The notes under the pieces were generated by a model that saw nothing but the letters and a program-made list of their open reading frames with translations, was not told the origin of the DNA and did not search any database. 24,413 bases of DNA from a virus: IMG/VR virus record IMGVR_UViG_3300041964_000197, positions 1 to 24,413 of that record; one strand, written 5' to 3'. Below, one piece after another: positions 1-24,413 of the stretch (its first letter is position 1; the number at the start of each line of letters is the position of its first letter). Made by a program: the position numbers and the translations under genes.

Positions 1-213
1 ATGCCGAGTTACACAACCGAAGTCGGGGTCAAGTTTGAGGGCGTCCTCAATGACCTTTCCTCCGAGCGTGAATTAACCAAAGGTGAGATAATCCGACGCG
101 CGGTTGCGCTCTATGCGTTCCTCCGTGAGGAGATGAAAGAGCAATCCCCGGCGCGGAAACTCTCCATAACTACGCTCGATGGCAGGATATTGAAAGACAT
201 CATGCTTCCTTGA
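1..213 (+). CDS. small ribbon-helix-helix-like protein (possibly 5' truncated by window edge)
   Basis: This encodes 70 residues starting with an ATG at the first base of the window, so the true start could lie upstream. The pattern is that of a ribbon-helix-helix (CopG/Arc type) DNA-binding protein: a short polar strand (about residues 4-10), a first helix ending in SSEREL, then TKGEIIRRAVALYAFLREEM as the second helix, matching the usual 'S/T-x-x-E-I-I-R-x-A' pattern. Such proteins bind operators as dimers and often autoregulate. It is followed after 18 nt by a membrane-protein gene on the same strand, suggesting a two-gene unit that ends at the terminator at 571-601. The base composition is less GC-rich than the late genes. 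The fold assignment rests on pattern only; the target is unknown. Confidence 0.6.
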   Translation: MPSYTTEVGVKFEGVLNDLSSERELTKGEIIRRAVALYAFLREEMKEQSPARKLSITTLDGRILKDIMLP

Positions 214-231: not shown

Positions 232-564
232 ATGACCGAAAAACAGGATGTCGTCGTCACGATGAAGGCGATGCTGGAGCGCTTTGAAGGCGACCAAGGT
301 GCGGTTCGTCTCGTCCGTAAGCGAGTCGATATTGAGCGGGTGCTTGTTATGCTGATCGCCATAGGCGGGACGGTGACGGTGCTCGCGCTGTCCTACTGGG
401 CAGTTGCGAGTTGCTTGTATCCGAGCTACGCTGAGGGGATCACAGACCGGACTCTCAAGATGTTCCAAGGTCTTTTGATGCCGTGGATGACGGCAATTAG
501 CGCGGTACTTGGTGTACTTGTTGGTCGCCGGATACCGTCCGAGCCGATCGATAAGGCGGAGTAA
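232..564 (+). CDS. small membrane protein with two predicted transmembrane helices
   Basis: This encodes 110 residues of unknown function. The start is supported by AAGGAG at 219-224, seven bases before the ATG. A charged N-terminus of about 36 residues (rich in K, R, E) is followed by a hydrophobic helix (about residues 37-60), a short loop, and a second helix (about 76-98) ending before GRR and a polar tail. Two close helices and a small size are compatible with a holin, a superinfection-exclusion protein or another phage membrane protein, but nothing in the sequence decides between these. It is downstream of the ribbon-helix-helix-like gene and immediately upstream of the terminator at 571-601. 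A host gene flanking an integrated prophage is an alternative. Confidence 0.65.
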   Translation: MTEKQDVVVTMKAMLERFEGDQGAVRLVRKRVDIERVLVMLIAIGGTVTVLALSYWAVASCLYPSYAEGITDRTLKMFQGLLMPWMTAISAVLGVLVGRRIPSEPIDKAE

Positions 565-5792: not shown

Positions 5793-8327
5793 TTAAGCGA
5801 GGCGCAGGCGCGACTGACGCCGGGCCCGCGTGAGCGACTGGATGCGCCGCACGTCGGCGGCGTCGTTGAAGGTTATGGGGCCGTTGAAGTTCACCGCGCC
5901 CCCGTCACCGCCCAGGATGTTCTGGCTGTCGCGGTTGGAGTAGATCCGTCCGGGGCCGTCGGGCACCCAGAGTTCGGGCCCGCGCTCGCCTATGATCGAG
6001 GGGCGACCGAGCGGCGGGCGTCCGCCCTCTGCGAAACCGAAGATTTTACCGACGCCCTTGACGAGTCCGCCGAGGCCCTTTGTTAGGGCCCCTCCGGTCA
6101 GCATGTCAGCGACCGGGAAGATACCGGCGGTAGCGGCACCGGCGGCGGCACCGAATGCCTGCCCGACGCCCCAGGAAGCGATAGAACCCGCGAAGCCACC
6201 ACCACCGCCCATGCCGGGGATGCCGGGGATTTGCATCCCGCCCGCGCCGGGCATGAACTGCGACAGAAGGGGGGCAAGGTTCCCTGCGTTCGCCGCACCC
6301 AGATCCGCCGAGTTGGTGACGGTCACCGGCGTGGGGGTGCGCTTCGCGTCGTCGAGTGCGCGGCTCATGGCACCGTAGGTCGATTTCGCGTCGCCCGAAG
6401 CGCCGTCACCGGTCTCTCCGTCCTTCTTCTTTGTGCCGAGTATGTCGCCGAGCAGGTCTTCCGCTCCCTTTGCCACCGCCGCCGCCGCCTTTTCCGCGAG
6501 AATGCGGATGATCGCCTGCCGGAAACCGTCGATGAGGGCCGCGAAGAACCCCTTGCCCGTGGTGAGCACGGTGGCGAAGGCGTCGCGGAACACGTCCTTG
6601 ATCGTCGCGCCCACCTGTTTGATGGCTTCGAGTTTCTTCGCCTTTTCGTTCAGGCGGTCGAACTCTCCGGCCAGCTTGCGCACCTCGGCGGCGACCTCCG
6701 GGCTCATCTTCTCCAGGCTCGTGTGGAACTGCTCCCACGCGATTCGGGCCTCGGTCGTCCCGAACTTCACCTCGCCGACCGCGATCTTCATCTCCATCAG
6801 CCGGTCGCGCAGGCCCTCCAGCCCACGCGCCTGAGCCACATTGCCGAGGGCGATGAACTCCTCGCGGAGCCGCCTCAGCTTTTCTGGGTCGATACCCCCT
6901 TCAAAATCGGTGCCCTCGCGCTGGAGTAGGAACTTGCCCCATTCGCTCCCGGTATACAGGAGCGCTTGGTACTCGTTCGCCAGTTCCCGGATCTTCTTCT
7001 TGTGCTGGTCTGCGGCTTGCATGTCGAAGAGCTGCTTGTTAAGTCCGGCGAGCGCAACGACGATCATACGGGTCAGGGGCGGCAGGGTTCGAGCGGAAGT
7101 TTGAACCGCTCCAGCGCCAGGATCGCGGGGTTCGTGGAATCTTCGACGCCTTCGACATGCAGGCGGTACTTTTCGAGTTCGACGCCCGCATCGCGGTGGG
7201 CGTCCGTGAGACCGTCCATCTTGGACTTCCACTCGTCGGCAATCTGCTTGGTCTGCTCCTCGATCGTGGAGAGCCGCTTCTCCTCGTGCTGGAGCGCGAC
7301 GATGCCCTTGATTCGATCCTTTTCCGCTTGGGTCAAGCTGCCATAGGATTTTCTTGAACACCTCGACGGCGACCTGATTTTCGACCGTTGCGTCGCGGAG
7401 AAGAAGCACCTTCTGCCGAACCGTGTCATAGAGACCGGCGAGCGCCGAGGTCACCCGGCTCTTCTCCGCCGCAGCGCCTTCCGCCTTTTTGATGGCGTCG
7501 GCGAGCCGCAGGTACTCGGAGGCAAGTTTCCCCGCCGAACCCGATTTCACATCGATCTTGTCGTACTTCTGGCCGAGTTCGCTGAGGTTGGCGGCTTGGA
7601 GCTGGCTCTTGTTCGCCGCAGTGAGTTGCTTGAGCTTCGTCCGCTGGGCGAGGACATCCGCGACCAGCGACTTGAACTGCGACTCCCGCGCTTTTCGGGC
7701 TGCTTCCGCCGCGTCCTTCGCCTGCTGTGCCGCGGCTTCGCGGGCCGCACGCGCGGCTTCTGCCGCCGCTTCTTTCTTTGCCTGCGCGACATCGAAGGCG
7801 TTCTGTTTTGCCGCCGCGATTTCGGTTCGCTTGGTGTCGGTCTTGTCGAGCTTGGCGATCGTCCCCTGGTTGACTTTGAGCCGGTTCTGCTGCCGGGCCA
7901 GTTCCGCCTTCGCCTGGTCGTACTCAAGGAGGCGCGAGGAAAGCTGGATGACCTGGGCCTTCGGATTGACCGGGATGCCCTTGGTCGTACCGTCCGCGAT
8001 CCGCTTACGAAGTTCGTCGCGCCGAGCGATCAGGGTGGGCGCTTCCTGCTCCCATTCCGCTATGATTGCCTTCTGCTTGTCGATCTCGGCCTTCGCGTCG
8101 TCGACCGCCTTCTGCGCGTTGTTCCGGGCGACGGTTTCGAGGCCGTTCGGGAGGCCCTTCGCTGCCCGTTTCACGTCCTGCTGGGTGATTTCGGCGTTCT
8201 GGTAGCGGGCGATTTCGGCCTGAGATTTGGCGATGTCTGTCTTGAGCTTGAACCACATTAGGGCCGCCCCGGCAATCGCTGCGACGACGATACCAATCGA
8301 CACGGCGAACGGCGCTATGCTCGCCAC
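5793..8327 (-). CDS. tape measure protein, C-terminal segment
   Basis: This open frame of 844 codons is the C-terminal two thirds of the tape measure protein. It opens with a hydrophobic stretch (IAPFAVSIGIVVAAIAGA) typical of tape measures, followed by a very long Ala/Lys/Glu/Gln-rich coiled coil (to ~320), more helices, and a Gly-rich tail with FAEGGRPPLGRPSIIGERG...ELWVPDGPG, a signature ending of siphovirus tape measures. Codons ~328-418 (about 7350 to 7086) are in the wrong frame: they read as an Arg-rich nonsense peptide, while the neighbouring frame at 7073-7429 reads the expected helical sequence (SLTQAEKDRIKG ... ILALERFKLPLEP). The GTG at 8327 is not a real start; the frame continues from the upstream segment. 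Confidence 0.8.
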   Translation of the reverse strand: MASIAPFAVSIGIVVAAIAGAALMWFKLKTDIAKSQAEIARYQNAEITQQDVKRAAKGLPNGLETVARNNAQKAVDDAKAEIDKQKAIIAEWEQEAPTLIARRDELRKRIADGTTKGIPVNPKAQVIQLSSRLLEYDQAKAELARQQNRLKVNQGTIAKLDKTDTKRTEIAAAKQNAFDVAQAKKEAAAEAARAAREAAAQQAKDAAEAARKARESQFKSLVADVLAQRTKLKQLTAANKSQLQAANLSELGQKYDKIDVKSGSAGKLASEYLRLADAIKKAEGAAAEKSRVTSALAGLYDTVRQKVLLLRDATVENQVAVEVFKKILWQLDPSGKGSNQGHRRAPARGEAALHDRGADQADCRRVEVQDGRSHGRPPRCGRRTRKVPPACRRRRRFHEPRDPGAGAVQTSARTLPPLTRMIVVALAGLNKQLFDMQAADQHKKKIRELANEYQALLYTGSEWGKFLLQREGTDFEGGIDPEKLRRLREEFIALGNVAQARGLEGLRDRLMEMKIAVGEVKFGTTEARIAWEQFHTSLEKMSPEVAAEVRKLAGEFDRLNEKAKKLEAIKQVGATIKDVFRDAFATVLTTGKGFFAALIDGFRQAIIRILAEKAAAAVAKGAEDLLGDILGTKKKDGETGDGASGDAKSTYGAMSRALDDAKRTPTPVTVTNSADLGAANAGNLAPLLSQFMPGAGGMQIPGIPGMGGGGGFAGSIASWGVGQAFGAAAGAATAGIFPVADMLTGGALTKGLGGLVKGVGKIFGFAEGGRPPLGRPSIIGERGPELWVPDGPGRIYSNRDSQNILGGDGGAVNFNGPITFNDAADVRRIQSLTRARRQSRLRLA

Positions 8328-8965
8328 GATCCGGCGAACACCGTCTTGATGTTGCCGCTGAGAGCCATCATCCCCGCCTGGACGCCCGCGAACTTGGTGC
8401 CGGAAGCCGCTGCAGCCCGGTATGCTTGGGACACAGACTGGAGGGCGCGGGCCTCGGTGGCTGCCGCCTGAACGGTTACGGCGCTACGGGCTTGGGCAGC
8501 CTCCACGATCCCGGCGAAGGTGTTCTCTGCCGCCGCCTGACGCCGCCGGTGAGGCAGATCCGACACGAAATCCGAGGCGATGTCCTCGGCGGCTTCCGCC
8601 GCGCGGGCCTTGCGGGCCTCGATCAGCGATTGCCCCAGTTTCGCCAGATCGGAGCCGTTGTCGGCGACCGCTCGCTGGACGCCGCCGAGGCTCTTGATCT
8701 GGACGACCATGCCCGCGATCGACGACACGACGCTCGCTATCGGTGCCAGTCCGACGGCCAGTTTCGTGAGCGACCCGGCGGTCTGCTGGACACCCTCCGG
8801 TAGTTGTCCGAAGACCGTCAGCAGGGCCTTGCCGGTATCCACGGCGTCCTGAATGTGGTCGCCGATCCCGCGGAAGAAGTTGCGGATCTTGCCCTGGTTT
8901 CGATCGACGTAATCGAACAGCTCCTGAACGATCTTGATCAGGCGCTGCTTGATCGGGAGCGTCAC
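8315..8965 (-). CDS. tape measure protein, third frame segment
   Basis: This is part of the tape measure gene, not a separate protein. The frame is actually open from about 9053, where it reads DFARTADGAANSTRVLSARF, the conserved tape measure block that precedes VTLPIKQRL. It then holds hydrophobic helices (SLTKLAVGLAPIASVVSSIAGMVV) and helical Ala-rich sequence. It runs out at GNIKTVFAGSWRA-stop at 8315; inserting one G at 8331-8332 gives NIKTVFAGIVASIAPF, joining it smoothly to the C-terminal segment. The nominal GTG start at 8965 has no ribosome-binding site. Confidence 0.75.
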   Translation of the reverse strand: MTLPIKQRLIKIVQELFDYVDRNQGKIRNFFRGIGDHIQDAVDTGKALLTVFGQLPEGVQQTAGSLTKLAVGLAPIASVVSSIAGMVVQIKSLGGVQRAVADNGSDLAKLGQSLIEARKARAAEAAEDIASDFVSDLPHRRRQAAAENTFAGIVEAAQARSAVTVQAAATEARALQSVSQAYRAAAASGTKFAGVQAGMMALSGNIKTVFAGSWRA

Positions 8966-8982
8966 CTCGCCGACCTTCGCCT

Positions 8983-9186
8983 TCAGATCGTCGAAACGGG
9001 CCGACAGAACCCTCGTGCTGTTCGCCGCGCCGTCGGCGGTACGGGCGAAGTCCCCGACGCGGCGGCTGATTGCCGCTTGATGATCGAGAGGATCGCCAGT
9101 TGCTTCTGCTGCGCGGCAATTTCCTTCGTCGTCTTGACGAGTCCGAGCCGGAGCGCCTCTTGCTGCACGGCGGTTTCGTTCGCCAC
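8983..9186 (-). CDS. tape measure protein, second frame segment
   Basis: This is part of the tape measure gene. In this frame, open from about 9236, the sequence reads GLKSGLTGESDPLKKFG then NETAVQQEALRLGLVKTTKEI, which is the conserved 'EALxSGLxGExxPLxKFG' region of tape measures. After about residue SIIKRQSAAASG the frame turns into Arg/Pro-rich nonsense, while the next frame picks up GDFARTADGAANS. One missing base between about 9052 and 9085 explains it; the CCCC run at 9052-9055 is a likely spot. It should not be annotated as a separate gene. Confidence 0.7.
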   Translation of the reverse strand: MANETAVQQEALRLGLVKTTKEIAAQQKQLAILSIIKRQSAAASGTSPVPPTARRTARGFCRPVSTI

Positions 9187-9233
9187 AACCCCGAACTTTT
9201 TGAGCGGATCGGACTCCCCTGTCAGGCCCGATT

Positions 9234-9752
9234 TCAGGCCTCCAGCGCCTCGGTGATGCTCGTGTTGTTGAAACTGGCCATATCAGCCGCCGTCTTGACG
9301 AGTTGGACGGAATACTGCGCCGCTGCCTGACGCGCTTGGCCCTGAGACCGCATCAGGTTGGCGAACGTGCCGATGTATTCGAGGGCGGCGGATTTAGAGA
9401 CGCCGTAGGATTTGGCGCTCTTCTCCGCGAAGTCCGTCGCCTGCTTTCCCGCCGCGCCGAGGAGCACACCCACTTTCGACGTGGATTCCGCAATGTCGCT
9501 GGCGGCGTCGGCGGTGTCTCCTGCGAACTTGAGGGCGGAGCGTCCGGCGTCGAGCAGTTTCCCGGCAACCTGGGTCAGCACGTTCCCCACGAACACTTGG
9601 AGCGCCCCCCCGAACCGTTTCGAGGCCCCCGACGCTTTGTCCAGATTCTCCTCGAACTGCCCCAGCCCGGCGTTAGCGCCCCGAATACCGCGATCAAATT
9701 GGGCGGATTCGAGCGAGATGACGGCTTTGAGCTGGGCTACGATTTCAGACAT
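9234..9752 (-). CDS. tape measure protein, N-terminal segment
   Basis: These 172 codons are the N-terminus of the tape measure protein: MSEIVAQLKAVISLES followed by the usual 'FDRGIRGANAGLGQFEENLDKA' type amphipathic helices, then a hydrophobic region and GYIGTFA-like sequence (EYIGTFANLMRSQG) and FNNTSITEALEA, immediately followed by a premature TGA at 9234-9236. One extra C at 9237-9238 would read ALEALKSGLTGE and continue the protein. The start at 9752 has no obvious Shine-Dalgarno sequence. It lies 83 nt after the end of the GT chaperone frame, past the 21-bp hairpin at 9792-9836. Confidence 0.82.
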   Translation of the reverse strand: MSEIVAQLKAVISLESAQFDRGIRGANAGLGQFEENLDKASGASKRFGGALQVFVGNVLTQVAGKLLDAGRSALKFAGDTADAASDIAESTSKVGVLLGAAGKQATDFAEKSAKSYGVSKSAALEYIGTFANLMRSQGQARQAAAQYSVQLVKTAADMASFNNTSITEALEA

Positions 9753-9791
9753 TGGGGAGGGATTCCGGGGGTGGTGGAAGGATAAAGGAGT

Positions 9792-9836
9792 GCTTCGTTT
9801 GATGGTCCCGGCGGAGCCGGGACCATCAAACGAAGC
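9792..9836. terminator. perfect 21-bp hairpin between tail chaperone and tape measure
   Basis: The arms 9792-9812 and 9816-9836 (left arm begins GCTTCGTTTGATGG) pair perfectly over 21 bp around a GGA loop. The right arm reaches the first base of the TAG stop triplet of the GT chaperone frame (9836-9838). On the minus strand only a short pyrimidine stretch follows, so it is either an inefficient terminator or an mRNA-processing/stability element lowering expression of the tape measure. Confidence 0.7.
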
Positions 9837-10027
9837 TACGAACTACGCCGGGCGAGAACGTGGTCGGCGGCTCGGATCGCGTACCAGTCCTCGAACGCCG
9901 CGTCGAGCACGATTTCTGGGGTGTCGTCGATCTCAGACCATTGGAGGCCGAGGAACCGGGCGGCAGTACGGCGGCGGAATCCTAACGAGAACTCGCCGCC
10001 GGGCTTGAATAGGAGGGCGCGATTCAA
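9836..10027 (-). CDS. tail assembly chaperone, T-domain (reached by -1 frameshift from G)
   Basis: These 63 codons in the -1 frame relative to the upstream G gene form the C-terminal domain of the GT fusion, the part that in lambda-type phages contacts the tail tube protein. The nominal start is a TTG (10027) without a ribosome-binding site; the natural route is the frameshift at CCCAAAC (10045-10051), giving VSPKRIAGAKLNRALLF and a fusion of 193 residues. The domain (GGEFSLGFRRRTAARFLGLQWSEIDD...) is basic then acidic. It ends at a TAG overlapping the strong hairpin at 9792-9836. Sequence similarity to a known T domain is not visible to me; the call rests on position and frameshift architecture. 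Confidence 0.8.
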   Translation of the reverse strand: MNRALLFKPGGEFSLGFRRRTAARFLGLQWSEIDDTPEIVLDAAFEDWYAIRAADHVLARRSS

Positions 10028-10051
10028 TTTTGCGCCCGCTATGCGTTTGGG
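10015..10051 (-). promoter_or_regulatory. programmed -1 ribosomal frameshift site in the tail chaperone gene
   Basis: On the minus strand the zero frame reads TCC CCA AAC GCA TAG, containing the slippery heptamer C-CCA-AAC (plus 10045-10051) just before the stop of G. Seven bases later a GC stem GGGCGC / GCGCCC with an 11-nt loop (plus 10015-10037) can stall the ribosome. Slipping back by one base joins G to the downstream T frame. The heptamer, spacer and stem follow the established lambda G/GT arrangement. Confidence 0.85.
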
Positions 10052-10416
10052 GAGACGGCCCCAGAAATCGCCGACATGATGATCCCCAGATCGCGGTAGG
10101 GAACGGCGTCGATGTCGTTCAGGGACACGGTGTTGCCTTTGCGGTCGGTCAGATCCCAGCCGGTGATGATGGTCTGCAGGTAGTCGACCAGGGCAGACTC
10201 CCCGTCCTCATCGTTATCGAGGGCCGCGAGGCGCTTCCGAAGGCGCGGCGTCAATTCGCCCATGTCAAAATGGATGTTGACGTCCTTGCCGCGGATGGTG
10301 GCGGTGACATGGGAGACGAGATCGGCGGGAGACGCGGGATCAGTGACTGTGCTCGCCGTCTGGTCGACTGGATCGGACGCGAACGAAGACTCGGTGTCGG
10401 GGGTGGAGATTGGCAT
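10039..10416 (-). CDS. tail assembly chaperone (G-like)
   Basis: This 125-residue protein is the zero-frame product of the tail chaperone locus, placed between the major tail protein and tape measure as in lambda G. It coats the tape measure protein during tail assembly (family knowledge). It is acidic and soluble, starting with a Ser/Thr/Asp-rich leader (residues 1-35), then a compact domain (VTATIRGKDVNIHFDMGELTPRLRKRLAAL...ALVDYLQTIITGWDLTD) typical of small phage tail chaperones, where 'W-D-L-T/D' is a recurring element. GAAGGA lies 7 nt before the ATG. Part of the ribosomes should slip at 10045-10051 to make the 193-residue GT form. Confidence 0.82.
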   Translation of the reverse strand: MPISTPDTESSFASDPVDQTASTVTDPASPADLVSHVTATIRGKDVNIHFDMGELTPRLRKRLAALDNDEDGESALVDYLQTIITGWDLTDRKGNTVSLNDIDAVPYRDLGIIMSAISGAVSPNA

Positions 10417-10440
10417 AGTGGGTTCCTTCAGAGGTAAACG

Positions 10441-10463
10441 GGCCCGGACAGAAGATCCGGGCC
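10441..10463. terminator. intercistronic hairpin after the major tail protein
   Basis: GGCCCGGA (10441-10448) pairs with TCCGGGCC (10456-10463) around a 7-nt loop. It lies in the 112-nt gap between the major tail protein stop (10529) and chaperone start (10416). There is no clear T tract on the minus strand; partial termination or 3'-end protection of the abundant tail-tube message is plausible. Confidence 0.55.
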
Positions 10464-10528
10464 TCGTCGGTGAGGTGATAGATACTACGGTCGCTCGCGC
10501 TCAGCGTCGCCGAGGACGGCGAGTGTAA

Positions 10529-11623
10529 TTAGGGGGTTGTGTCGGCGAGTTCGGCGTACTTGGTGGTGACATTTTCGAAAAGCTGAACGCCATTGCCGCT
10601 GCTCGGCGCAGATCCGACCGTCGAAGCCTGGGTGGCTGTCGCGGCTTTCGTCTTCAGTACAACTTCCAGGTAGCCGTCGAGGCCAGATCCGAACGCATCG
10701 TCGACATAGACAGGTTCGAGGTCGTAGGTACCCGCATAGATGTCGTCCGTGTCACCCCGCGAGGTGGACTTGATGAACGCCGGGAACGTGATGCGCATCT
10801 CGTAGTTGACGCCGGTGCCGATCTCGCGCCCGATCGCCACGTAGCGAATCCAGACCACCTCGTTCGATTTGAGTGAACCCATTAGAGCCGAGCCCTGGCT
10901 GTCCTGCTCGACCACGATCTGGGCCGTCTTGTCGAAGTAACGTTCCACGGAAGCGCTGAAACTCTGCTCGCTGTCATCGAGCGTGAACAGGGCGGACTGG
11001 CGTCCCGCGAGGTTGAGGTTGGCCGAGAGGCAGCGCTTCAGCCGCGCTCCCGTCTGGTCGAGACCGAGGCGGGATGCCGCGGCGAACACGGACACCTGTT
11101 CCGGGCTCACCGGCTCCAGCACCACGTCCGCCGGGTTCGGAGTCAGAGTGATCCCCTCCTGGTAGATTTTGCCGAGGCCGGAACCGGAGATCGTTGCGCC
11201 TTCGCGGGTGATCGAGATGCCGAGGTCTGTCAAGAACGCACCGGAGAAACCGGCGGTGCCCGCCGCGCTCCCCATCTCGAACGTATAGGTGCGGAGGGTA
11301 TTGATTCCCTGCGGGAGTGGACGCCAGGTGATGGTCGTCTGGCCGGATGCGGTGGTCGAGGTCGGAGCGCCCAGAATGCTGTTAAAAAGGAACGCCGAGT
11401 CGGTGTAGGTCAGAGGGCCTTCCACTCCGAACTCGGTGTGCTGCTTGCCGCCAGTAAATCCGACAGCCGCCATATTGCCGGAGGCGCGGATCGGGTTGCG
11501 GGGGATCACCGGGGTCGGGGTGACGGTGAGGGAGCGGAGGACGAGGTTTGCGGCGACGGGGGTGCCGGGGGTGGTCTCGACCCCAATGCGGGGGAGTTCG
11601 AAAATACTGGCGCGTTCTGCCAT
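10529..11623 (-). CDS. major tail (tube) protein
   Basis: This 364-residue protein is a predicted tail tube subunit. It precedes the G/GT chaperones and the tape measure, the standard place for the tube protein. The N-terminus (MAERASIFELPRIGVETTPGT...) resembles tube proteins of the 'xPxxGxEsxxGTxV' type with an early NLVLRSLTVTPTPV beta segment; much of the rest alternates short strands (FEMGSAAGTAGFSGAFLTDL, then ERYFDKTAQIVVEQDS). The C-terminus has a Thr/Ala/Ser-rich linker. I chose ATG 11623 because AGGAGA lies 9 nt upstream (plus 11633-11638); an in-frame extension to 11641 is possible. A hairpin at 10441-10463 follows. No Ig-like C-terminal domain was recognised. Confidence 0.8.
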   Translation of the reverse strand: MAERASIFELPRIGVETTPGTPVAANLVLRSLTVTPTPVIPRNPIRASGNMAAVGFTGGKQHTEFGVEGPLTYTDSAFLFNSILGAPTSTTASGQTTITWRPLPQGINTLRTYTFEMGSAAGTAGFSGAFLTDLGISITREGATISGSGLGKIYQEGITLTPNPADVVLEPVSPEQVSVFAAASRLGLDQTGARLKRCLSANLNLAGRQSALFTLDDSEQSFSASVERYFDKTAQIVVEQDSQGSALMGSLKSNEVVWIRYVAIGREIGTGVNYEMRITFPAFIKSTSRGDTDDIYAGTYDLEPVYVDDAFGSGLDGYLEVVLKTKAATATQASTVGSAPSSGNGVQLFENVTTKYAELADTTP

Positions 11624-12148: not shown

Positions 12149-12292
12149 TTAGGGGGTAGGTCGCCTAGGCGGGGCGACCCCGGCGTAGATCCGGTCGCCG
12201 AGCAGGGCGTGAAGGGTATCGGCTTCATCCGAGGGGATCTGGCCGGTTAAGCGATCCATGACAAAGGCGTATGCGCCGAGCATTTCGTTCAT
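12149..12292 (-). CDS. tail terminator protein, N-terminal segment (frameshifted)
   Basis: These 47 codons start with ATG at 12292, overlapping the stop of the gp10-like gene as ATGA, so translation is coupled. The peptide (MNEMLGAYAFVMDRL...HALLGDRIYAGVAPP) shows the 'LxxxLGDRIYxxVAP' pattern of tail terminator proteins and then hits a TAA at 12149-12151. The continuing frame is found after one missing base within 12152-12167 (for example a lost G giving PPEATYPLIVV). The protein would cap the tail tube and join it to the head. Confidence 0.65.
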   Translation of the reverse strand: MNEMLGAYAFVMDRLTGQIPSDEADTLHALLGDRIYAGVAPPRRPTP

Positions 12293-12621
12293 TTCACGGC
12301 CCCTTTTACAGCGCGGTTGATACGGTTCTGAAAGTCGGCTTCAGCCTCGTTCACGGCGTCCAGGAGGAAGGGTTGGGGAGACTGGTGCTCTGTGCCGTAG
12401 TGGACGTGGACGGCGTAATCCGCCCCGACTGACACCTCCCCTTCAAGCCCGGAGGCGCTGTGGGTAATGCTGGCGCGGAGGTTCCCGGTGTCGACCGGTG
12501 CCCCTTCTTTCGCGCCCCCCTCGATCTGGGCCGCCGTTTGCTCCACGACCGTCTCCAGAGCCGCCCTCAGCTTCGCGGACAGCCCAGGCAGGAGGTTGAC
12601 GGGGGCTTCGAATCGGATCAT
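12289..12621 (-). CDS. HK97 gp10-like head-tail joining / tail completion protein
   Basis: This 110-residue protein belongs to the HK97-gp10-like family, which acts at the head-tail junction. The visible signature is GAPVDTGNLRASITHSASGLEGEVSVG followed by YAVHVHYGTEHQSPQPFLLDAV, matching the family pattern of 'A-P-V-D-T-G-x-L-R-x-S-I' and 'Y-A-x-x-V-E-x-G-T...P-Q-P-F-L'. The start at 12621 overlaps the stop of the 85-residue gene (ATGA) and its own stop overlaps the start of the tail terminator (ATGA), so three genes are translationally linked. Length is typical of the family, and the assignment is firm. Confidence 0.88.
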   Translation of the reverse strand: MIRFEAPVNLLPGLSAKLRAALETVVEQTAAQIEGGAKEGAPVDTGNLRASITHSASGLEGEVSVGADYAVHVHYGTEHQSPQPFLLDAVNEAEADFQNRINRAVKGAVK

Positions 12622-12875
12622 CGCTTCACCACGTTGAGCACGACCACCCCGTGTGTAACGCGCTCGTTGGGGCCCTTTTCGCGCCGGACGGAGAGCCGAT
12701 AGCGCCCCGGAGACATCGGCACCTGTACAGTCACAAGCGCCAGCCCGGCTTCCTCGTCGGTGATCGCTACGGTCGGGTTCGGGGAGGTGGCGACACGGCT
12801 GCTATCGGTCAGAAGCGCGGACAGGTTGTAACCAGATAGCGATAAATGCGATCCGACCACATTCACGAGAGCCAC
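12618..12875 (-). CDS. small beta-rich protein of unknown function, structural region
   Basis: This encodes 85 residues not recognised as a known family. The sequence alternates short hydrophobic strands (VVGSHLSLSGYNLSALL, AGLALVTVQVPM, GRYRLSVRREKG, VTHGVVVLNVV) suggesting a compact all-beta, perhaps Ig-like, domain. The start overlaps the preceding gene by 13 nt and its stop overlaps the gp10-like start (ATGA), so it is co-translated with both. It might decorate the capsid or fibre, or fill the neck slot, but no motif decides. Confidence 0.6.
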   Translation of the reverse strand: MALVNVVGSHLSLSGYNLSALLTDSSRVATSPNPTVAITDEEAGLALVTVQVPMSPGRYRLSVRREKGPNERVTHGVVVLNVVKR

Positions 12876-13735
12876 CTGGAGGGGTAAGACGTCCCCGCGA
12901 ACACGGTCAGAGGGTCGTCGCAGTCGGAGTCAGGGACGAGCGAGATAGTCCCGCCGGTGCCGCCCCCGATCATAACCGTGCCGCCGCCGCTGACGACGGC
13001 GTTGATCGAAGATATGGGGGCGTCCAGGTTGTCGAGTTTGTTCGCCCGCGCGGATGTATAGCCCTGCGCGGCGAGTGCAGCCTGTACGTCGGGATCGGGG
13101 CGGCGGAAGAACCGCACCAAGAGGCCGCCCACGGCCCCTTCCGTCACACTCACAAAATCTTCTGGGCCGATCACGATGGGCTCCGCGATCCCGACGATCC
13201 CCGTCACTGTATCGACCGACGTGACCTTGTTGAACCGCACGCCGCCCGCGTACATCACCGCGAACGTTTGGCCGACGTACAGCTCTTTGTATTCGAGCAT
13301 CATGGTTTCGTAATCGAACTGTGTCAGCGTCGTAGGCTCCGAGAAGTAAAGTTCAAAGGTCAGCGAGGTCGCGCCCGACAGGCTGTAGTACGAGATGGCG
13401 CTGTTTAGCGCGTCGAACTCGCCCCGGAACATGCTCATGTCCTGCGCCCACTCCTGGCCCACCGACCACAGGCTTGGGATGTGCTTCTGTGCCACGCTGG
13501 CGTCTGTCGTCTTGAATACTGCGATGTATTCGCCCGCCGAAGCCGTGAAAGAGCCGAACAAAGTGTAGCGGTACATGCCCGCCGCGCCGTGCGGATTCGC
13601 CGCCGCGCCGCTGACGATTTGGGTGCCTGCGGGATGGAACACGTCCACGGTGACCGGAAGGCCCGCCTTGCCTGAGCCGTCCGAACCGATGAAGAAGGCG
13701 TAGAATGTGACGGGTTGGTATTGTAGTGTTATCAT
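12863..13735 (-). CDS. 290-residue structural-type protein of unknown function (fibre/decoration candidate)
   Basis: The ATG at 13735 overlaps the lectin gene stop as TAATG, so I chose it over the in-frame ATG at 13750. The N-terminal ~90 residues look like a beta-sandwich (TFYAFFIGSDGSGKAGLPVTVDVFHP...YRYTLFGSF), followed by a helical/mixed region, then AALAAQGYTSARANKLDNLD, a phrase recurrent in phage tail fibre and baseplate-type proteins where a short helix precedes a fibre, and a Gly-rich C-terminus (GGGTVMIGGGTGG). It is adjacent to the LamG-like lectin gene; together they may form a host-surface-binding appendage. The exact role is not known. Confidence 0.62.
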   Translation of the reverse strand: MITLQYQPVTFYAFFIGSDGSGKAGLPVTVDVFHPAGTQIVSGAAANPHGAAGMYRYTLFGSFTASAGEYIAVFKTTDASVAQKHIPSLWSVGQEWAQDMSMFRGEFDALNSAISYYSLSGATSLTFELYFSEPTTLTQFDYETMMLEYKELYVGQTFAVMYAGGVRFNKVTSVDTVTGIVGIAEPIVIGPEDFVSVTEGAVGGLLVRFFRRPDPDVQAALAAQGYTSARANKLDNLDAPISSINAVVSGGGTVMIGGGTGGTISLVPDSDCDDPLTVFAGTSYPSRWLS

Positions 13736-14496
13736 TACGGTAGCCCCCATTTCGCGGCGAGGAAGGACGCCACGGCATTCCGTTCCGCCGGGGTCAGGCG
13801 GCGGTTATAGATCAGAATCTCCCCGATGTCGCCCTGATAAAAGAAGCTGGACATGTTGCTCGTCCCGATGGTCGCAGGTTGTGTGAAGAGTCCCTCGCCG
13901 ACCACTGTTCCCGCCCCCGAATACGTCTGGACGTTGTTGAAGAACACCTGCGTCTGCCCCTCGCCGACCGCGAAGCCGTACAGAAATCCCGCGAACAGGG
14001 CCGCCTGTGTGGGGGCGGCTACGGCGGGACGTTCGCCCGACACGAAGGAGTCGTAGATGTGGCCGTCCACCCAGATTAAGTGCGAGTTCTGCGTCGCGTT
14101 GTTGAACCGCCATAGCCCTGTCGGGATACCGTCGGTCGGAATCGGCGCGGTCTTCTTAGCGACGAGGAATATCTCGGCCCCCACGGCGGCACCTCCCTCC
14201 GCGAGTCGGGCATAGATACTGTCCACGTTAAGCCACTGGTCTGCGCCGTTGAATCGTAGCGTCGGAAGTCCATTCATGCCGCCAGGGGTGAGCGTGGGGG
14301 CGTTGCCCGCCGCGACCTGGTAGGCCGCTTCCCCAACGCGGGATCTGTCGGCGACCGTGGTAACGGCGACTCCGCTCGCCCCCGTTAGCACCGAGGCGTC
14401 GAGAGCGAGGACGAGTCCGTCCACGCCGCCTGGCTTGTATCGGTTTGCTAAAGACACACCGAGCGGGGAGAGTTGCCCGGACAAGATGCCCATCAT
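13735..14496 (-). CDS. LamG/concanavalin A-like lectin-domain protein
   Basis: This 253-residue protein has a jelly-roll lectin domain. The evidence is the opening GLVLALDASVLTGASG, the phrase LPTLRFNGADQWLNV, the strand pattern of a LamG-type domain, and the strongly diagnostic ending GDIGEILIYNRRLTPAERNAV followed by a terminal FLAAKWGLP, which matches the 'AEILIYxRxLxxxERxxVxxYLxxKY' motif of LamG_3-like domains. Such domains bind glycans. In a head-tail gene cluster it may serve as a head fibre or whisker for carbohydrate adhesion. Its Shine-Dalgarno AAGGAG lies inside an 8-bp hairpin (14497-14515), so initiation may be throttled. The stop overlaps the next gene's start. Confidence 0.8.
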   Translation of the reverse strand: MMGILSGQLSPLGVSLANRYKPGGVDGLVLALDASVLTGASGVAVTTVADRSRVGEAAYQVAAGNAPTLTPGGMNGLPTLRFNGADQWLNVDSIYARLAEGGAAVGAEIFLVAKKTAPIPTDGIPTGLWRFNNATQNSHLIWVDGHIYDSFVSGERPAVAAPTQAALFAGFLYGFAVGEGQTQVFFNNVQTYSGAGTVVGEGLFTQPATIGTSNMSSFFYQGDIGEILIYNRRLTPAERNAVASFLAAKWGLP

Positions 14497-14515
14497 GCGG
14501 AAAGCTCCTTTCCGC
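14497..14515 (-). promoter_or_regulatory. hairpin that hides the Shine-Dalgarno of the lectin gene
   Basis: On the minus strand GCGGAAAG-GAG-CTTTCCGC forms an 8-bp stem with a 3-nt loop. The AAGGAG ribosome-binding site is split between stem and loop, and the lectin ATG follows immediately. The same 19-nt palindrome appears at 17337-17355 ahead of the capsid gene. Confidence 0.6.
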
Positions 14516-14518
14516 GCA

Positions 14519-14833
14519 TTAGCGTCGGCTCACGGCGATCACGGTGTTGAGCTTCGCGTTGCCGAACTGCTCCATGTCGTTCACGAACTCCTGGAGCCGG
14601 ACGATGATGTTCGTGGCCTTCGCGCCGGTGAGGGGCGAGCCGGAGATCACGCCGCTGGAGCCCACGGGGGTGTTGTCGTTCGGGATCAGGGCGCTGACTT
14701 CGCGGGCATACCAGGCGGCGAGGGTGTCTTTGGCCTGGATATACAGGGCGTGCATCGCGTCGGCGGCGGGGACGATCTCGTGTACGACGAAATCGATGGC
14801 GTGCGGGGCGGTGACGGGAATGACTTCTTCCAT
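14519..14833 (-). CDS. 104-residue protein of unknown function in the structural region
   Basis: This starts at the ATG at 14833, which overlaps the stop of the preceding membrane-protein gene as TGATG. The 104 residues begin with an acidic, His-containing segment (MEEVIPVTAPHAIDFVVHEI), continue with Ala-rich helices and end IIVRLQEFVNDMEQFGNAKLNTVIAVSRR. No transmembrane helix, signal peptide or known motif is visible. Placement in the coupled gene chain makes it a probable virion or assembly protein. Nothing further can be inferred. Confidence 0.6.
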   Translation of the reverse strand: MEEVIPVTAPHAIDFVVHEIVPAADAMHALYIQAKDTLAAWYAREVSALIPNDNTPVGSSGVISGSPLTGAKATNIIVRLQEFVNDMEQFGNAKLNTVIAVSRR

Positions 14834-15117
14834 CAAATGTTTTCCTTCGAGGAAATTGCGACGGGGTTGGGCTGCCAGTCGGCGATCTTCGGGTTACGGA
14901 GGTACACGAACGCGACGTAAGCGCCGACGATAAGACCGGTGGACTTGGCGAGTTCGGGGTGGCCGAGGTAGGCTACGGCTTGGGCGGCGAGCCCGGCGGC
15001 GGTGCCCACGGTGGCGGTAAACTCCACCCAGCGGACGCGATCCAGGTACACGGAGACGATGGTTTCGATGGTGACTTTGACTTCCCACGCCACCTGGCGG
15101 GCATACTCGTCGATCAT
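14833..15117 (-). CDS. small membrane protein, holin candidate
   Basis: This 94-residue protein starts at an ATG overlapping the preceding stop as ATGA. A charged, helical N-terminus of ~30 residues (EYARQVAWEVKVTIETIV) is followed by two hydrophobic segments (VEFTATVGTAAGLAAQAVAYL and TGLIVGAYVAFVYL) separated by a short polar turn (GHPELAKS), then a polar tail. Two short transmembrane helices, the small size, and an adjacent single-helix coiled-coil protein suggest a holin pair. It is placed unusually, among head-completion genes rather than next to the lysin 13.7 kb downstream. A structural role cannot be excluded. Confidence 0.58.
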   Translation of the reverse strand: MIDEYARQVAWEVKVTIETIVSVYLDRVRWVEFTATVGTAAGLAAQAVAYLGHPELAKSTGLIVGAYVAFVYLRNPKIADWQPNPVAISSKENI

Positions 15118-15422
15118 GGGTTCGGCTTCCTCATCATCACGTCGATCTTCGCCTCGATGCTGGCGAGACGCTGGCCGCGCTCGTCCTTGGTGGCGGCGAA
15201 CTCTTTCAGCGTGCTCTGGATGTCCCGGAGCGTGCTGTTCTGCTGCTGCAGGGTCACGTTGATGGCTTCGAAGCGGGCCTCGTTCCGGGCCTGATTAACC
15301 TCGACACGGACAGCCCAGAGGCAGCACGCCACAAGCATCGGGAGGAAGAACTTGAACACGTCCCACTGAGTGGCGGGCTGATGCCAGTAAGACTGTGTTT
15401 CAATTTCGGGTTGAGGCATCAT
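15114..15422 (-). CDS. membrane-anchored coiled-coil protein (spanin/holin-accessory candidate)
   Basis: The ATG at 15422 overlaps the head-closure stop (TGATG). The protein (102 residues) has a short polar N-terminus, one hydrophobic segment (FKFFLPMLVACCLWAVRV, about residues 24-41), then a long amphipathic helix rich in Gln, Glu, Lys and Asn (NQARNEARFEAINVTLQQQ ... LASIEAKIDVMM) predicted to form a coiled coil. That layout resembles an inner-membrane spanin or an XhlA-like holin helper, except that XhlA carries its helix at the C-terminus. Its neighbour at 14833-15117 is the holin candidate. Function is inferred from architecture only. Confidence 0.55.
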   Translation of the reverse strand: MMPQPEIETQSYWHQPATQWDVFKFFLPMLVACCLWAVRVEVNQARNEARFEAINVTLQQQNSTLRDIQSTLKEFAATKDERGQRLASIEAKIDVMMRKPNP

Positions 15423-15799
15423 CAAGCCATCCTCCGGCAGTTCACGGTCAGGAACGAAGCGTCCGCTCGGCCCCGGTCATGGTCGAGGATCTCATAACGA
15501 ACGCCGTCCACGCGGATGATGTCGTCGGAATGGATCTCGGCGTCCTGGGAGAAGAGGATCGCCCACTCGGATCGCACCACGCTCTTCTCGCCGTTCACCA
15601 CCGGGGCCTGGGGTTCGGCGGAGCGGAGGACGCGGCACTTGTAGCGCCGGGCGACGCGGTTGTCATCCTGGGTCACCGCGCCGTAGCGATCGCGGTTGTC
15701 GGTGGGGCGCAGGATCTCGGCGGTCTGCGTCATACGGGCCTGGAGCGCGGCGGAAAATTCTTTTCCGGCAGCCTTCGAAAACGGGGAAGTGTTGCACAT
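15422..15799 (-). CDS. head-closure / stopper protein (head-tail connector)
   Basis: This 125-residue protein resembles small head-completion (stopper) proteins: a helical N-terminus (FSKAAGKEFSAALQARMTQT) followed by beta-rich sequence with YKCRVLRSAEPQAPVV..., SEWAILFSQDAEIHSDDIIRVDGVRYEILDHD, which matches the 'VxxxDxIxxxGxxYxVxxV' pattern of this family. The first ATG consistent with context is 15799, where it overlaps the adaptor stop as TGATG, and its own stop overlaps the next start. The longer in-frame extension to 16294 is Pro/Ser/Thr-rich nonsense from another gene's frame. Position after capsid and adaptor fits. Confidence 0.72.
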   Translation of the reverse strand: MCNTSPFSKAAGKEFSAALQARMTQTAEILRPTDNRDRYGAVTQDDNRVARRYKCRVLRSAEPQAPVVNGEKSVVRSEWAILFSQDAEIHSDDIIRVDGVRYEILDHDRGRADASFLTVNCRRMA

Positions 15800-16031
15800 C
15801 AGGCGATGTCCGATCGCCCGAAAGAAATCGTCTTTACACGGGCCTTGTTGCGTAGCGCCTTCTCGACGGATTCCATCACGGCCAGGGACTGAGAAAGTTT
15901 GATAGAGACGCCCATCTCGCTGGTATCGACGAGCCCGCGCTTTCGGATTCTCAGGGACAGAAGAAGATCCGCCGCCGCCGCGAAGGGGTCGTAGCGGTCG
16001 CCGACGAGGTAGACCGTAAGGCGGGAGAGGC
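15799..16031 (-). CDS. head-tail adaptor protein, C-terminal segment (frameshifted)
   Basis: In this frame the sequence reads LSRLTVYLVGDRYDPFAAAADLLLSL, then LVDTSEMGVSIKLSQSLAVMESVEKAL, ending SFGRSDIA with TGA at 15799-15801. The 'YDxxAAAADLLxxL' helix followed by a segment with 'D' and 'S' and then a Q-S repeat is typical of the C-terminal half of head-tail adaptors (gp15/gp16-like). It continues the N-terminal segment after one missing base at about 16029-16032 and has no start of its own. It is easy to miss, because its first ATG would yield a very short product. Confidence 0.68.
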
Positions 16032-16361
16032 CGTTTCGAACGTGCCGTGGAGAGGATCGGTGTAGGCAATGTCCTCCGCCGGGATCTCGGTGTAGGAGGC
16101 GTCCAGGAGCCGCGCGTTACCCGCCAGGTAGGGCTCGAACCTGTGGATGGAAAAGGAGATCCCGCCGCCGGGGCCGTAGGTGGGGGCGGTGTTGGCTCGA
16201 TCGTAGAGCACCTGGTCGCGGTTGTCGGCGAGGGCGGCGAGGATCTGTCGGTCGGAGATGTCGGACTCGCAGTCACAGCCGCCGGTGGAAGCATCGCCGA
16301 TGAGTTCTTTTACAAGGGTGACGAGGGGTGTGAGCTGGTCTGTGGTGGGCGGGGCGGGCAT
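15951..16361 (-). CDS. head-tail adaptor protein, N-terminal segment (frameshifted)
   Basis: I chose the ATG at 16361 because GGAG lies 6 nt upstream (plus 16368-16371) and the longer reading to 16427 would be encoded by the post-capsid hairpin. The protein starts MPAPPTTDQLTPLVTLV and runs through SDRQILAALADNRDQVLYDRAN, a helical region typical of the adaptor that docks on the portal, then PYLAGNARLLDASYTEIPAED. After GTFETA (about 16029) the frame turns into Ser/Thr/Arg nonsense, while the neighbouring frame carries on with a sensible helix. Joined, the product would be about 187 residues. Frame change looks like a single lost G. Confidence 0.7.
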   Translation of the reverse strand: MPAPPTTDQLTPLVTLVKELIGDASTGGCDCESDISDRQILAALADNRDQVLYDRANTAPTYGPGGGISFSIHRFEPYLAGNARLLDASYTEIPAEDIAYTDPLHGTFETASPALRSTSSATATTPSRRRRIFFCP

Positions 16362-16386
16362 GGGGGTCTCCGGGGAGGCATGTATG

Positions 16387-16423
16387 AAGAAGGCGGCGGG
16401 ACAGGACATCCCGCCGCCTTCTT
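16387..16423. terminator. strong hairpin just after the major capsid gene
   Basis: A perfect 15-bp stem (AAGAAGGCGGCGGGA at 16387-16401 with 16409-16423) around a 7-nt loop follows the capsid stop (16434) on the minus strand. Only a short TTCTT run closes the stem, so it probably gives partial termination or protects the abundant capsid message from 3' decay. Confidence 0.7.
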
Positions 16424-16433
16424 TCACCGGCTA

Positions 16434-16838
16434 TTACGCGGCGGCTTTGATGTACGCGAGGCGCTTGGAGTTCTCGGCGACAACCTTGGAGTCGTGCAGG
16501 AGCAAGCCACGGACGACGGAATCGAACGAGGTTTCCAGGCGCAGTTGCTCGACGGACATGATCTGACCGGCGTAGAAGATCGCGTCCTGCTCGCCGCAGA
16601 GGATGTACTTCGCGCTCGAAGCCAAAGGAACATTGTTGCTCTTGTAGATCGTGAACCCGGCGATCTGCCCTACCCGACCGGTGGAAACGATGCTGTCGCC
16701 CATCGCGGTCGAGCGGATGAAGTCGGGGGACTTCAGGAGCAGCGCGTAGGTGGCGGGGTCGACGATGGCGTAGCGACCGATGTCCGGGACGCTCTGCTGG
16801 TCGAGCTTCGTGGAGGCGTCTACGAAGTAGCCGTACAC
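16434..16838 (-). CDS. major capsid protein, C-terminal segment (frameshifted)
   Basis: This is the second half of the major capsid gene in a different frame from its start. Reading upstream, the frame gives TPDNVYGYFVDASTKLDQQ if one C is added at 16845-16846. It continues with PDIGRYAIVDPATYALLLKS, SFDSVVRGLLLHD and ends KRLAYIKAAA. The 'RYAIVDPxxYxxLLxxxxF' helix and 'xIAGFTIYKSNNVP' strand are typical of HK97-fold capsid proteins of this class. The nominal start at 16838 is internal. The gene ends just before the hairpin at 16387-16423. Confidence 0.8.
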   Translation of the reverse strand: MYGYFVDASTKLDQQSVPDIGRYAIVDPATYALLLKSPDFIRSTAMGDSIVSTGRVGQIAGFTIYKSNNVPLASSAKYILCGEQDAIFYAGQIMSVEQLRLETSFDSVVRGLLLHDSKVVAENSKRLAYIKAAA

Positions 16839-17272
16839 GTTGTCGGAGTCAGCGCGAGCGCGGCAGCCGAAGCGCCGGTGACGCGGTTGGCGGACGGGAC
16901 GCTCGTGTACTGCGCCAGGATGTTGCTTTCAATCGAGGCGTTCATGGCGACGGCGGCGCGTTTGGCGTAAGCGTCCAGGGGGTCGATGTCAGACCGGCGG
17001 CGGTCAACGTCCGAGGCTTTGAAGGCGAAATACTCGGTCGTGCTGACGGTGAAATCTTCGATCGCAGGGGCCAGATCCTGGTAGGAGATCGAGCCAGAGT
17101 ACGGGCCCATCGTGACCGAGCCCATCGTACGGATCTTGACCGTGCTATTTTCGGTCAGGTCGCCTTCGTACTCGCGGTTCACGAGCGGCAACATAACGTT
17201 TACTTTGTCGAGGTTCTCGACGACTTTAGCGGAGAATTTTGTCGCGTCAAGGGCGACGAGGTTGTTGGCCAT
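16820..17272 (-). CDS. major capsid protein, N-terminal segment (frameshifted)
   Basis: These 150 codons start the major capsid protein: MANNLVALDATKFSAKVVENL, then PLVNREYEGDLTENSTVKIRTMG, YQDLAPAIEDFTVSTTEYFAFKA and a helix ending SIESNILAQYTSV. This order (N-arm, 'xGDxVxIRxxG' strand, 'FxVDxxxYFAFKxxD') is characteristic of HK97-fold capsid proteins that follow a scaffold gene. After SAAALALTP the frame runs into TTCTATS-stop at 16820. The whole protein, joined across one missing base, would be 279 residues. The start has no strong Shine-Dalgarno sequence, unusual for the most abundant protein; a palindrome at 17337-17355 lies upstream. Confidence 0.82.
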   Translation of the reverse strand: MANNLVALDATKFSAKVVENLDKVNVMLPLVNREYEGDLTENSTVKIRTMGSVTMGPYSGSISYQDLAPAIEDFTVSTTEYFAFKASDVDRRRSDIDPLDAYAKRAAVAMNASIESNILAQYTSVPSANRVTGASAAALALTPTTCTATS

Positions 17273-22539: not shown

Positions 22540-22767
22540 CTTGATTGTTCTTGAAAAGGAAAGAGCCCGCCCGCCCACTACGAAGTTGAAGTGGGAAACC
22601 GCGGGGGAGCGCGGCTGGGCAGGCGTACCGGAAGGTGCGGAAGAAGACGCGCCTCGGTCTCTGAAGGTAAAGTGCGGACGCCCAGCACATCCGCAAAGTA
22701 GGTGGCGGTTCCCCCACTCCAGAAGCGTTCCTGTAGCAATCGCAACGTTTGCTTTATAAGGGAGCGC
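22540..22767. other. divergent intergenic region between terS and sigma factor genes
   Basis: These 228 nt separate two diverging genes and should hold both promoters. It includes copy 1 of the recurring motif (22582-22592), a TTTATAA box (22753-22759) close before the sigma gene, whose reverse complement TTATAAA could serve terS, and GC-rich inverted stretches. No consensus promoter is clear. Confidence 0.5.
22582..22592 (-). promoter_or_regulatory. recurring late-region motif, copy 1 (before terS)
   Basis: AAGTTGAAGTG, reading CACTTCAACTT toward terS, 43 nt before its ATG, in the divergent region shared with the sigma factor gene. Confidence 0.4.
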
Positions 22768-23331
22768 ATGCACAAAGAGCGAAAACAATTCGAGGCGGCG
22801 GTCGAGGCGGAGCGAGGCCCTATGCTCCGGCAGTTACGGGGCCAGGTGGACGTGGAGACGGCGCAGGATCTGGTTCAGGACGCCATGCTGATCGCCGTTT
22901 CCACCGACGCCTGGCGGGAGATCATCTGCGTTAAAAGCTGGATGTGGGGCGTGGTAAAGAAGGTCGCCTGGGGCCACCGGAGGAAGCGGAAAGAGACCGT
23001 TTCCTTGGACGAGTTGATCGGCAAGATCGGCGAGGATGCTTCCGTTACCCGGCTGGCCCTGGCCTGGCCCGACGACACGCTTGAGCGCATGGAAGAAGAC
23101 GAGGAGTTCGCCGTGCGTGTCGGAGAGGTTCTCGAACTGGCGAAGGCGGCGGATCTGTCGCGGAAGGAATACTACGTCGTTGTCGCCCGGCTTCGGGGCC
23201 AGGAATACAAAGAGATCGCCCAGGTGATGGCGATCTCCGAGAACGCGGTGCGGACGTACCTGTCGCTGGCCCTGGCGAAGATCCGAGGCGTCAAAGCCGA
23301 CGCTTCCTTCACCGGAAGTGTACTAACCTAA
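22768..23331 (+). CDS. ECF-like sigma-70 family RNA polymerase sigma factor
   Basis: This 187-residue protein carries a sigma region 2 core (about 14-76: TAQDLVQDAMLIA, then KSWMWGVVKKVAWGHRRKRKE) and a region 4 helix-turn-helix (about 128-174: LSRKEYYVVVARLRGQEYKEI, then VMAISENAVRTYLSLALAKIRG), joined by an acidic linker. That two-domain layout, without regions 1.1 or 3, defines ECF sigma factors; phage relatives often act as late-gene activators near terS. ATG 22768 is preceded by AAGGGAG and is preferred over 22702. The gene diverges from terS across a 228-nt gap. Its last 9 bp overlap the converging unknown gene. Confidence 0.85.
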   Translation: MHKERKQFEAAVEAERGPMLRQLRGQVDVETAQDLVQDAMLIAVSTDAWREIICVKSWMWGVVKKVAWGHRRKRKETVSLDELIGKIGEDASVTRLALAWPDDTLERMEEDEEFAVRVGEVLELAKAADLSRKEYYVVVARLRGQEYKEIAQVMAISENAVRTYLSLALAKIRGVKADASFTGSVLT

Positions 23332-23837: not shown

Positions 23838-24413
23838 CTACGGGTTGCCGAGCGGAACACGGACGAGGTACTGCTGCCCCCCGCGAAGGACGCGCAGGAC
23901 TATGATGTCGCCGGGGCGCTTGCCGACGTTGTGGCGGTTTAGGTCTTCGGCGCTGCTGATCCACTGCCCATCGACCTGCGAAATGTAATCGCCCTTTCGT
24001 ATCCCGGCTAAATACGCGGTCGTGCCGGGAACGATGTTGCCGACGAACACGCCGTAGCCCGGCTGCAGGCCGTAGCTTGCGCCGACTCCAGGGGGGAGCG
24101 GCGCGAGGCTCACGCCGATCTTCGGGTTACCCAAGTCGGGCCGATATGCCGGTGCGGCGGGCGCGGGGACATACTGCGTCGCCGGGGCTGTCATGGCGGG
24201 GGCGCTATAGGTGCTACTCGGAGCGGTAGATCGGCTCCGCTCCGCATCCCACTTAGCGAAATCAACGAACATGATCCCCACCAGGATTGCCACCAGTGCC
24301 ATCCCGGTAAGGAACAGCCCCAACCCGCACCCGAACAACTTCTGCGCCTGTTCGCGCCCCCATACCGCCGCGACAAACAGAACCGCCAGCAGAAAGATTA
24401 CGATTACCCCCAT
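23838..24413 (-). CDS. membrane-anchored PDZ-domain protein
   Basis: This encodes 191 residues; the ATG is the last triplet of the window, so a longer upstream start cannot be excluded. Two hydrophobic helices (about residues 2-18 and 29-49: IVIFLLAVLFVAAVW and GLGLFLTGMALVAILVGIMF) are followed by a Ser/Pro/Ala-rich linker (~60-95) and a PDZ domain (~107-188) with GYGVFVGNIVPGTTAYLAGIRKGDYISQVDG, a carboxylate-binding-loop 'GYGV' and the 'AGIxKGDxIxxVDG' helix as in HtrA-type PDZ domains. No protease domain accompanies it. It may bind unfolded or C-terminal peptides at the membrane. A host gene or a phage accessory gene are both possible. Confidence 0.8.
   Translation of the reverse strand: MGVIVIFLLAVLFVAAVWGREQAQKLFGCGLGLFLTGMALVAILVGIMFVDFAKWDAERSRSTAPSSTYSAPAMTAPATQYVPAPAAPAYRPDLGNPKIGVSLAPLPPGVGASYGLQPGYGVFVGNIVPGTTAYLAGIRKGDYISQVDGQWISSAEDLNRHNVGKRPGDIIVLRVLRGGQQYLVRVPLGNP

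Follow-up and report, generated by a model that had tools for sequence, protein, structure and literature searches.

Accessory genes inserted between the head-closure and gp10-like genes of an uncultured siphovirus: a possible pairing of virion decorations and small membrane proteins

The neck-passage structure is an optional virion decoration, provided with carbohydrate-binding modules, which is located at the joint between capsid and tail (PMC6669499, PMC4759559). Its gene (nps) is present or absent at a hotspot within the structural genes that, in the 936 phages, lies upstream of the major tail protein gene (PMC6669499, PMC4759559). In TP901-1, the neck-passage structure is non-essential (PMC4493119). 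In P2, the holin, the endolysins and the Rz-like spanins are encoded between the adaptor L and the tail-completion genes R/S.

The stretch of DNA analysed here (hereafter, the window) is the entire IMG/VR record IMGVR_UViG_3300041964_000197, of 24,413 bases. On its minus strand, the following genes succeed one another: (i) large terminase, portal, minor head, scaffold, major capsid, gp6-type adaptor (which took an iterative search to recognise) and Hc1; (ii) the block that is the subject of this study; and (iii) HK97-gp10/Neck1, a small open reading frame (ORF), a terminator-like ORF (assigned by position only), a match to a minor-tail family, tape measure, Dit, Tal and NlpC/P60. The HK97-gp10/Neck1 flank exceeds the curated profile cut-offs (37.4 bits versus 21.4, and 47.3 versus 30.8). 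An earlier note had described six ORFs between the two flanks and all of them were found on the minus strand where it had placed them (Table 1). At one edge of the record, a membrane-plus-PDZ-domain protein (23838-24413) and, by eye, a plus-strand sigma-70-like factor (22702-23331) adjoin the terminase genes; these are possibly host genes at the edge of a provirus. At the other edge, a small strongly hydrophobic protein (232-564, plus strand) and a ribbon-helix-helix-like protein (1-213, plus strand), both recognised by eye, are convergent to the late operon.

In general terms, the block is read here as two accessory sets of an uncultured siphovirus gathered in one late operon, namely a virion decoration set and a membrane protein pair, a reading to which we give an even chance of being correct.

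Table 1. Coordinates of the block, its flanks and the hairpin that precedes the LamG gene.
Feature	Position	Strand	Evidence
Upstream flank: head-closure (Hc1-like) protein	15422..15802	(-)	phrog_501 2e-5, phrog_615 8e-5
CC103: hydrophobic segment and coiled-coil-like C-terminal half	15114..15422	(-)	hydropathy, heptad signal, coding signature, weak phrog_13
TM94: small, with two segments of moderate hydrophobicity	14833..15117	(-)	hydropathy, strong coding signature
U105: protein of 104-105 aa	14519..14833	(-)	coding signature 0.70
Hairpin holding the LamG ribosome-binding site	14497..14517	(-)	sequence and fold
LamG/concanavalin-like virion protein, 253 aa	13735..14496	(-)	phrog_10356, phrog_11772, Laminin_G_3, L048 homologue
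F290: fibre-like protein with N-terminal beta-sandwich of ~95 aa	12863..13735	(-)	L002 match; Ig-like strands at moderate confidence
B: beta domain, probably F290 C-terminal domain in shifted frame	12618..12893	(-)	frame decoding, codon scores
Downstream flank: HK97-gp10/Neck1 tail-completion protein	12289..12621	(-)	phrog_5 8e-20, PF04883 5e-9, TIGR01725 3e-12

All six ORFs carry a coding signal. Their in-frame codon signature amounts to 0.32-0.70 log units per codon, compared with 0.43-0.49 for the five reference genes of the window used to train the codon scores, and both remaining same-strand frames score clearly negative. The strongest codon bias of the block corresponds to U105. The GC content of the block (0.625) is that of the window (0.628). 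The coupling of most of these genes through stop/start overlaps, also pointed out in the earlier note, was confirmed at seven of eight junctions: Hc1/CC103 and TM94/U105 (TGATG in both cases), CC103/TM94, B/gp10 and gp10/next (ATGA), LamG/F290 (TAATG) and F290/B (GTGA). Since the coupling reaches the ordinary neighbours as much as the block itself, it indicates membership of the operon, not a shared function. A search for internal promoters and terminators in the block yielded none that was convincing. The exception to the coupling is the U105/LamG junction, where a gap of ~22 nt includes a hairpin with a perfect stem of 8 bp and a loop of 3 nt; the ribosome-binding site AAAGGAG lies within this hairpin, just before LamG. 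The fold of this hairpin is modest (z -1.6; 16 of 200 shuffles fold equally well). LamG thus has the sole uncoupled start in the block, and the hairpin at its ribosome-binding site may be a point of translational control.

The last of the six ORFs, described previously as a small beta protein of its own, is better explained otherwise. The coding frame passes from the F290 ORF to the B ORF near position 12,880: over the nine codons that precede the coupled GTG at 12866, the downstream frame scores +3.75 and the upstream frame -0.25, which places the probable beginning of the beta domain within the fibre ORF. Both ORFs probably represent one polypeptide, of which B would be the C-terminal domain, and the block would then comprise five genes, not six. 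A separate small gene for B, with its start at GTG 12866 or 12875, is possible too, because chance alone readily produces a GTGA overlap in such a frame relation. Frame changes were also observed in the major capsid (16434-17272), gp6-type adaptor (15804-16427) and tape measure (5793-9752) genes. Since other structural genes change frame as well, the record probably contains base-level errors, which are the simplest reason for these changes; a programmed shift, real decay or a decaying provirus are possible alternative causes. In any case, the fact that small "genes" in records of this type can arise from frame breaks is a warning.

Relatives of the window were fetched by means of the large terminase (80 loci) and the major capsid protein (80 viral loci and 4 genome loci). 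The claim that Hc1 and gp10 are normally adjacent was borne out: the gap between them, frequently an overlap, does not exceed ~290 bp in any of the 20 capsid-related loci in which both genes were recognised by iterative profile search, many of these loci being close kin. In the window, the same gap measures 2.8 kb. When the genes of 29 non-redundant capsid relatives were mapped, most of the connector clusters proved canonical. Given that relatives have nothing between Hc1 and gp10, the block is an insertion. Other connector clusters do carry fibre-like genes: in L095, whose capsid, portal and minor-head genes are related to those of the window, gp10 (phrog_5) and the adaptor (phrog_442) are separated by two genes, one fibre-like and rich in repeats (260 aa) and the other beta-rich (199 aa), while L022 has a 535-aa gene, fibre-like by inspection, between capsid and adaptor (one part of its product also matches phrog_460, an Hc2 family). 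In L079, a terminase relative, the capsid genes are directly followed by several glycosyltransferase-like genes in a row and by a gene resembling a sulfotransferase (7008-10982; recognised by eye).

No relative carries the whole set, and the block is therefore not conserved as a unit. The independent scattering of its genes, which the earlier note regarded as evidence against a joint function, was found for the F290 domain (in L002) and for LamG (in L048), the rest being unmatched. For CC103, TM94 and U105, no convincing relative was detected in any fetched locus, even when E-values up to 10 were inspected. Similarly, tblastn searches of TM94, U105, F290, LamG and B against 50,697 phage records revealed no convincing relative, and the sole match in IMG/VR searches with U105, F290, TM94 and LamG was L002, for F290. 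A degenerate-DNA search with the motif IPSLWVVG was also tried and discarded, as it returned only chance matches.

The LamG assignment is weak in Pfam (Laminin_G_3, 0.001, 19.6 bits, under the curated cut-off of 27.6) and is sustained by two PHROG virion-structural families (phrog_10356, 6e-15; phrog_11772, 1e-8). The AlphaFold model of this protein has a mean pLDDT of 32 and no usable fold. Its closest relative in terms of context is a 347-aa protein of L048 (17253-18296; a phage related through its terminase, with another capsid family), whose C-terminal two thirds are collinear with the LamG protein of the window. In BLASTP, this relationship appears as two collinear segments (E 0.002 and 0.003); the profile score is 14.5 bits, and the best of 1,938 locally shuffled copies reaches 8.5. 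The L048 protein has its own N-terminal beta domain and sits between an adaptor (phrog_442) and the tail genes, that is, in the connector cluster, where the other block genes are absent. The LamG protein of the window shares its C-terminal FYQGDIGEILIYNRRLTPAE motif with L179, in which the LamG region and a podophage fibre domain form a fusion.

Regarding F290, residues 1 to ~95 share 50% identity over 94 aa with a protein of L002 (10001-10912), a low-GC element which is Clostridium-like (host by impression only). The start of F290 was set at the ATG at 13735 (290 aa) because the L002 homologue starts exactly there. In L002, the capsid gene and a GLUG beta-helix-like gene precede this gene, and the adaptor (phrog_132, 2e-12) follows it immediately; the remaining block genes are not present and the middle and C-terminal parts of the protein differ. 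The 34-kb L002/L175 element carries integrase, terminase, capsid, fibre and lysis genes, with no obvious tape-measure gene, and could represent a short-tailed phage, a satellite or else a truncated record. AlphaFold models of F290, from two sequences, present Ig-like strands (pLDDT ~60-75) at residues ~13-87 and nothing usable beyond; in a Foldseek search, the model of F290 matched only Ig domains, weakly and non-specifically (E >= 0.065). When the F290 domain profile was run against 391 genomes from the class of G002 (reached through the Clostridiales locus L170) and 398 from the phylum of G005 (Streptococcus, L173), nothing matched, nor did the F290 protein match anything in the genome collection. 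By eye, B had been likened to BppU_N, a candidate that was rejected, as the Pfam profile gave no match to B even at E up to 10; F290 has no BppU_N match in Pfam either.

The second set consists of CC103 and TM94, the only small membrane ORFs seen by inspection in the minus-strand operon. CC103 has one clear hydrophobic segment (residues ~22-40) and a coiled-coil-like C-terminal half whose heptad signal was equalled in 10 of 500 shuffles. This layout, with an N-terminal hydrophobic segment followed by a coiled coil, fits a predicted inner-membrane spanin subunit. Its best family match is the "Rz-like spanin" phrog_13 (0.002), a weak match that stands among several chance-level coiled-coil hits. 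Within 14300-15600, no ORF of at least 35 aa has the lipobox of an Rz1-like lipoprotein, apart from LVAC inside the CC103 membrane segment; since no lipoprotein partner was found, CC103 was rejected as the Rz of an Rz/Rz1 pair. TM94 has a holin-like size and layout, with hydrophobic segments at residues ~31-49 and 55-73 (Kyte-Doolittle 1.15 and 1.28, respectively); family profile and phage-record searches gave neither a homologue nor a holin family match. Likewise, no homologue of U105 was obtained in family profile, IMG/VR and phage-record searches. The lysis function that the earlier note had contemplated for the membrane proteins is circumstantial: what points towards it is the weak Rz-like match, the fact that the operon shows no further small membrane genes, and the precedent of P2. 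The gene for NlpC/P60 closes the tail genes, and its product is a candidate endolysin or tail-associated hydrolase. As the record is only a fragment, a normal lysis cassette may be located beyond it.

According to the two-set reading, the LamG protein, F290 with domain B and perhaps U105 would be optional virion decorations. F290 would form a presumably trimeric fibre docked via its N-terminal beta-sandwich at the neck or the capsid, while the LamG protein would confer weak glycan binding, and thereby a reversible attachment of the particle to the host surface that would precede engagement of the tail tip. The same mode of action has been proposed for the neck-passage structure (collar or whiskers) of lactococcal phages. 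CC103 and TM94 would be small membrane proteins, most likely involved in lysis, with TM94 as the holin-like protein, CC103 as the inner-membrane spanin-like protein and NlpC/P60 (659-1168) as a candidate peptidoglycan hydrolase. The position of LamG and F290, together with the relatives in L048, L095 and L002, supports the part of the earlier proposal that assigned them to a glycan-binding, fibre-type decoration. LamG genes elsewhere sit among fibre-like genes, and one of them is fused to a podophage fibre domain, as could be the case if LamG and F290 were ordinary tail fibre or adhesin genes moved by recombination, whose products still act at the tail tip; nevertheless, the closest context matches (LamG in L048, the F290 domain in L002) belong to head or connector clusters, and this displacement seems unlikely to us. 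As far as CC103 and TM94 are concerned, a more serious competitor, albeit one we consider doubtful, is that they are membrane morons concerned with superinfection exclusion or entry blocking, and not with lysis. The absence of a good holin or spanin match and of a lipoprotein partner would agree with this, as would TP901-1, in which a small putative membrane gene, ORF50, directly precedes the neck-passage gene (PMC4493119). On the other hand, expression from the late operon is late for exclusion in a lytic infection, and no moron-type promoter or terminator stands out.

The earlier note had joined all six products into one head-fibre/adhesion module. In such a scheme, the membrane proteins and U105 would assemble or anchor a head or neck fibre, and the whole block would act jointly in adhesion or DNA entry. 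Nearly all the genes are translationally coupled, their GC content and codon usage are uniform and they are located at the neck, all of which is consistent with such a module; but the set is absent from relatives, two of its members (the F290 domain and LamG) recur separately, without the others, three have no detectable relatives, and the coupling, since it extends to ordinary neighbours, is no sign of shared function. We thus regard a single module as improbable. Slightly less probable again would be a new family of two-protein neck appendage, in which F290 whiskers at the Hc1/gp10 interface display LamG and a co-regulated entry or lysis membrane pair completes one coupled set. As to the two-set reading itself, no relative has both sets together and, hence, a joint function of decoration and membrane genes is only a possibility.

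If the lectin and the fibre are indeed located at the neck, glycan-binding neck decorations would extend to an unrelated siphovirus lineage, with protein families and an insertion point different from those of the lactococcal phages, which are the best worked-out case. The connector cluster would then look like a general place of insertion for adhesion genes, as judged from the window, L095, L048 and L022.

Compared with known neck-passage proteins, BppU_N, holins and paired spanins, the block proteins have no detectable homology. The neck-passage structure of the lactococcal 936 and P335 phages is a glycan-binding, optional neck decoration with beta-sandwich and lectin-like parts, as the LamG/F290 pair would be, and both nps and the block are presence/absence insertions in a structural operon. 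But while the neck-passage structure is built on one protein of ~500-900 aa, with a BppU-like N-terminal domain, a coiled coil and a carbohydrate-binding module, the window has separate lectin and fibre genes; and while nps lies upstream of the major tail protein gene, the insertion of the window lies between Hc1 and gp10. LamG and F290 would work as a neck-passage structure does, but the lack of a match to the BppU-like anchor domain sets them apart from that group. With P2, the window has in common the presence of small membrane genes between head- and tail-completion genes in one operon; P2, however, has the full holin-endolysin-spanin set at that site, whereas the window has two candidate membrane genes, with neither an endolysin nor a lipoprotein partner there. 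Most likely, the block brings together accessory surface-sticking and lysis genes of known kinds in an unusual combination and place.
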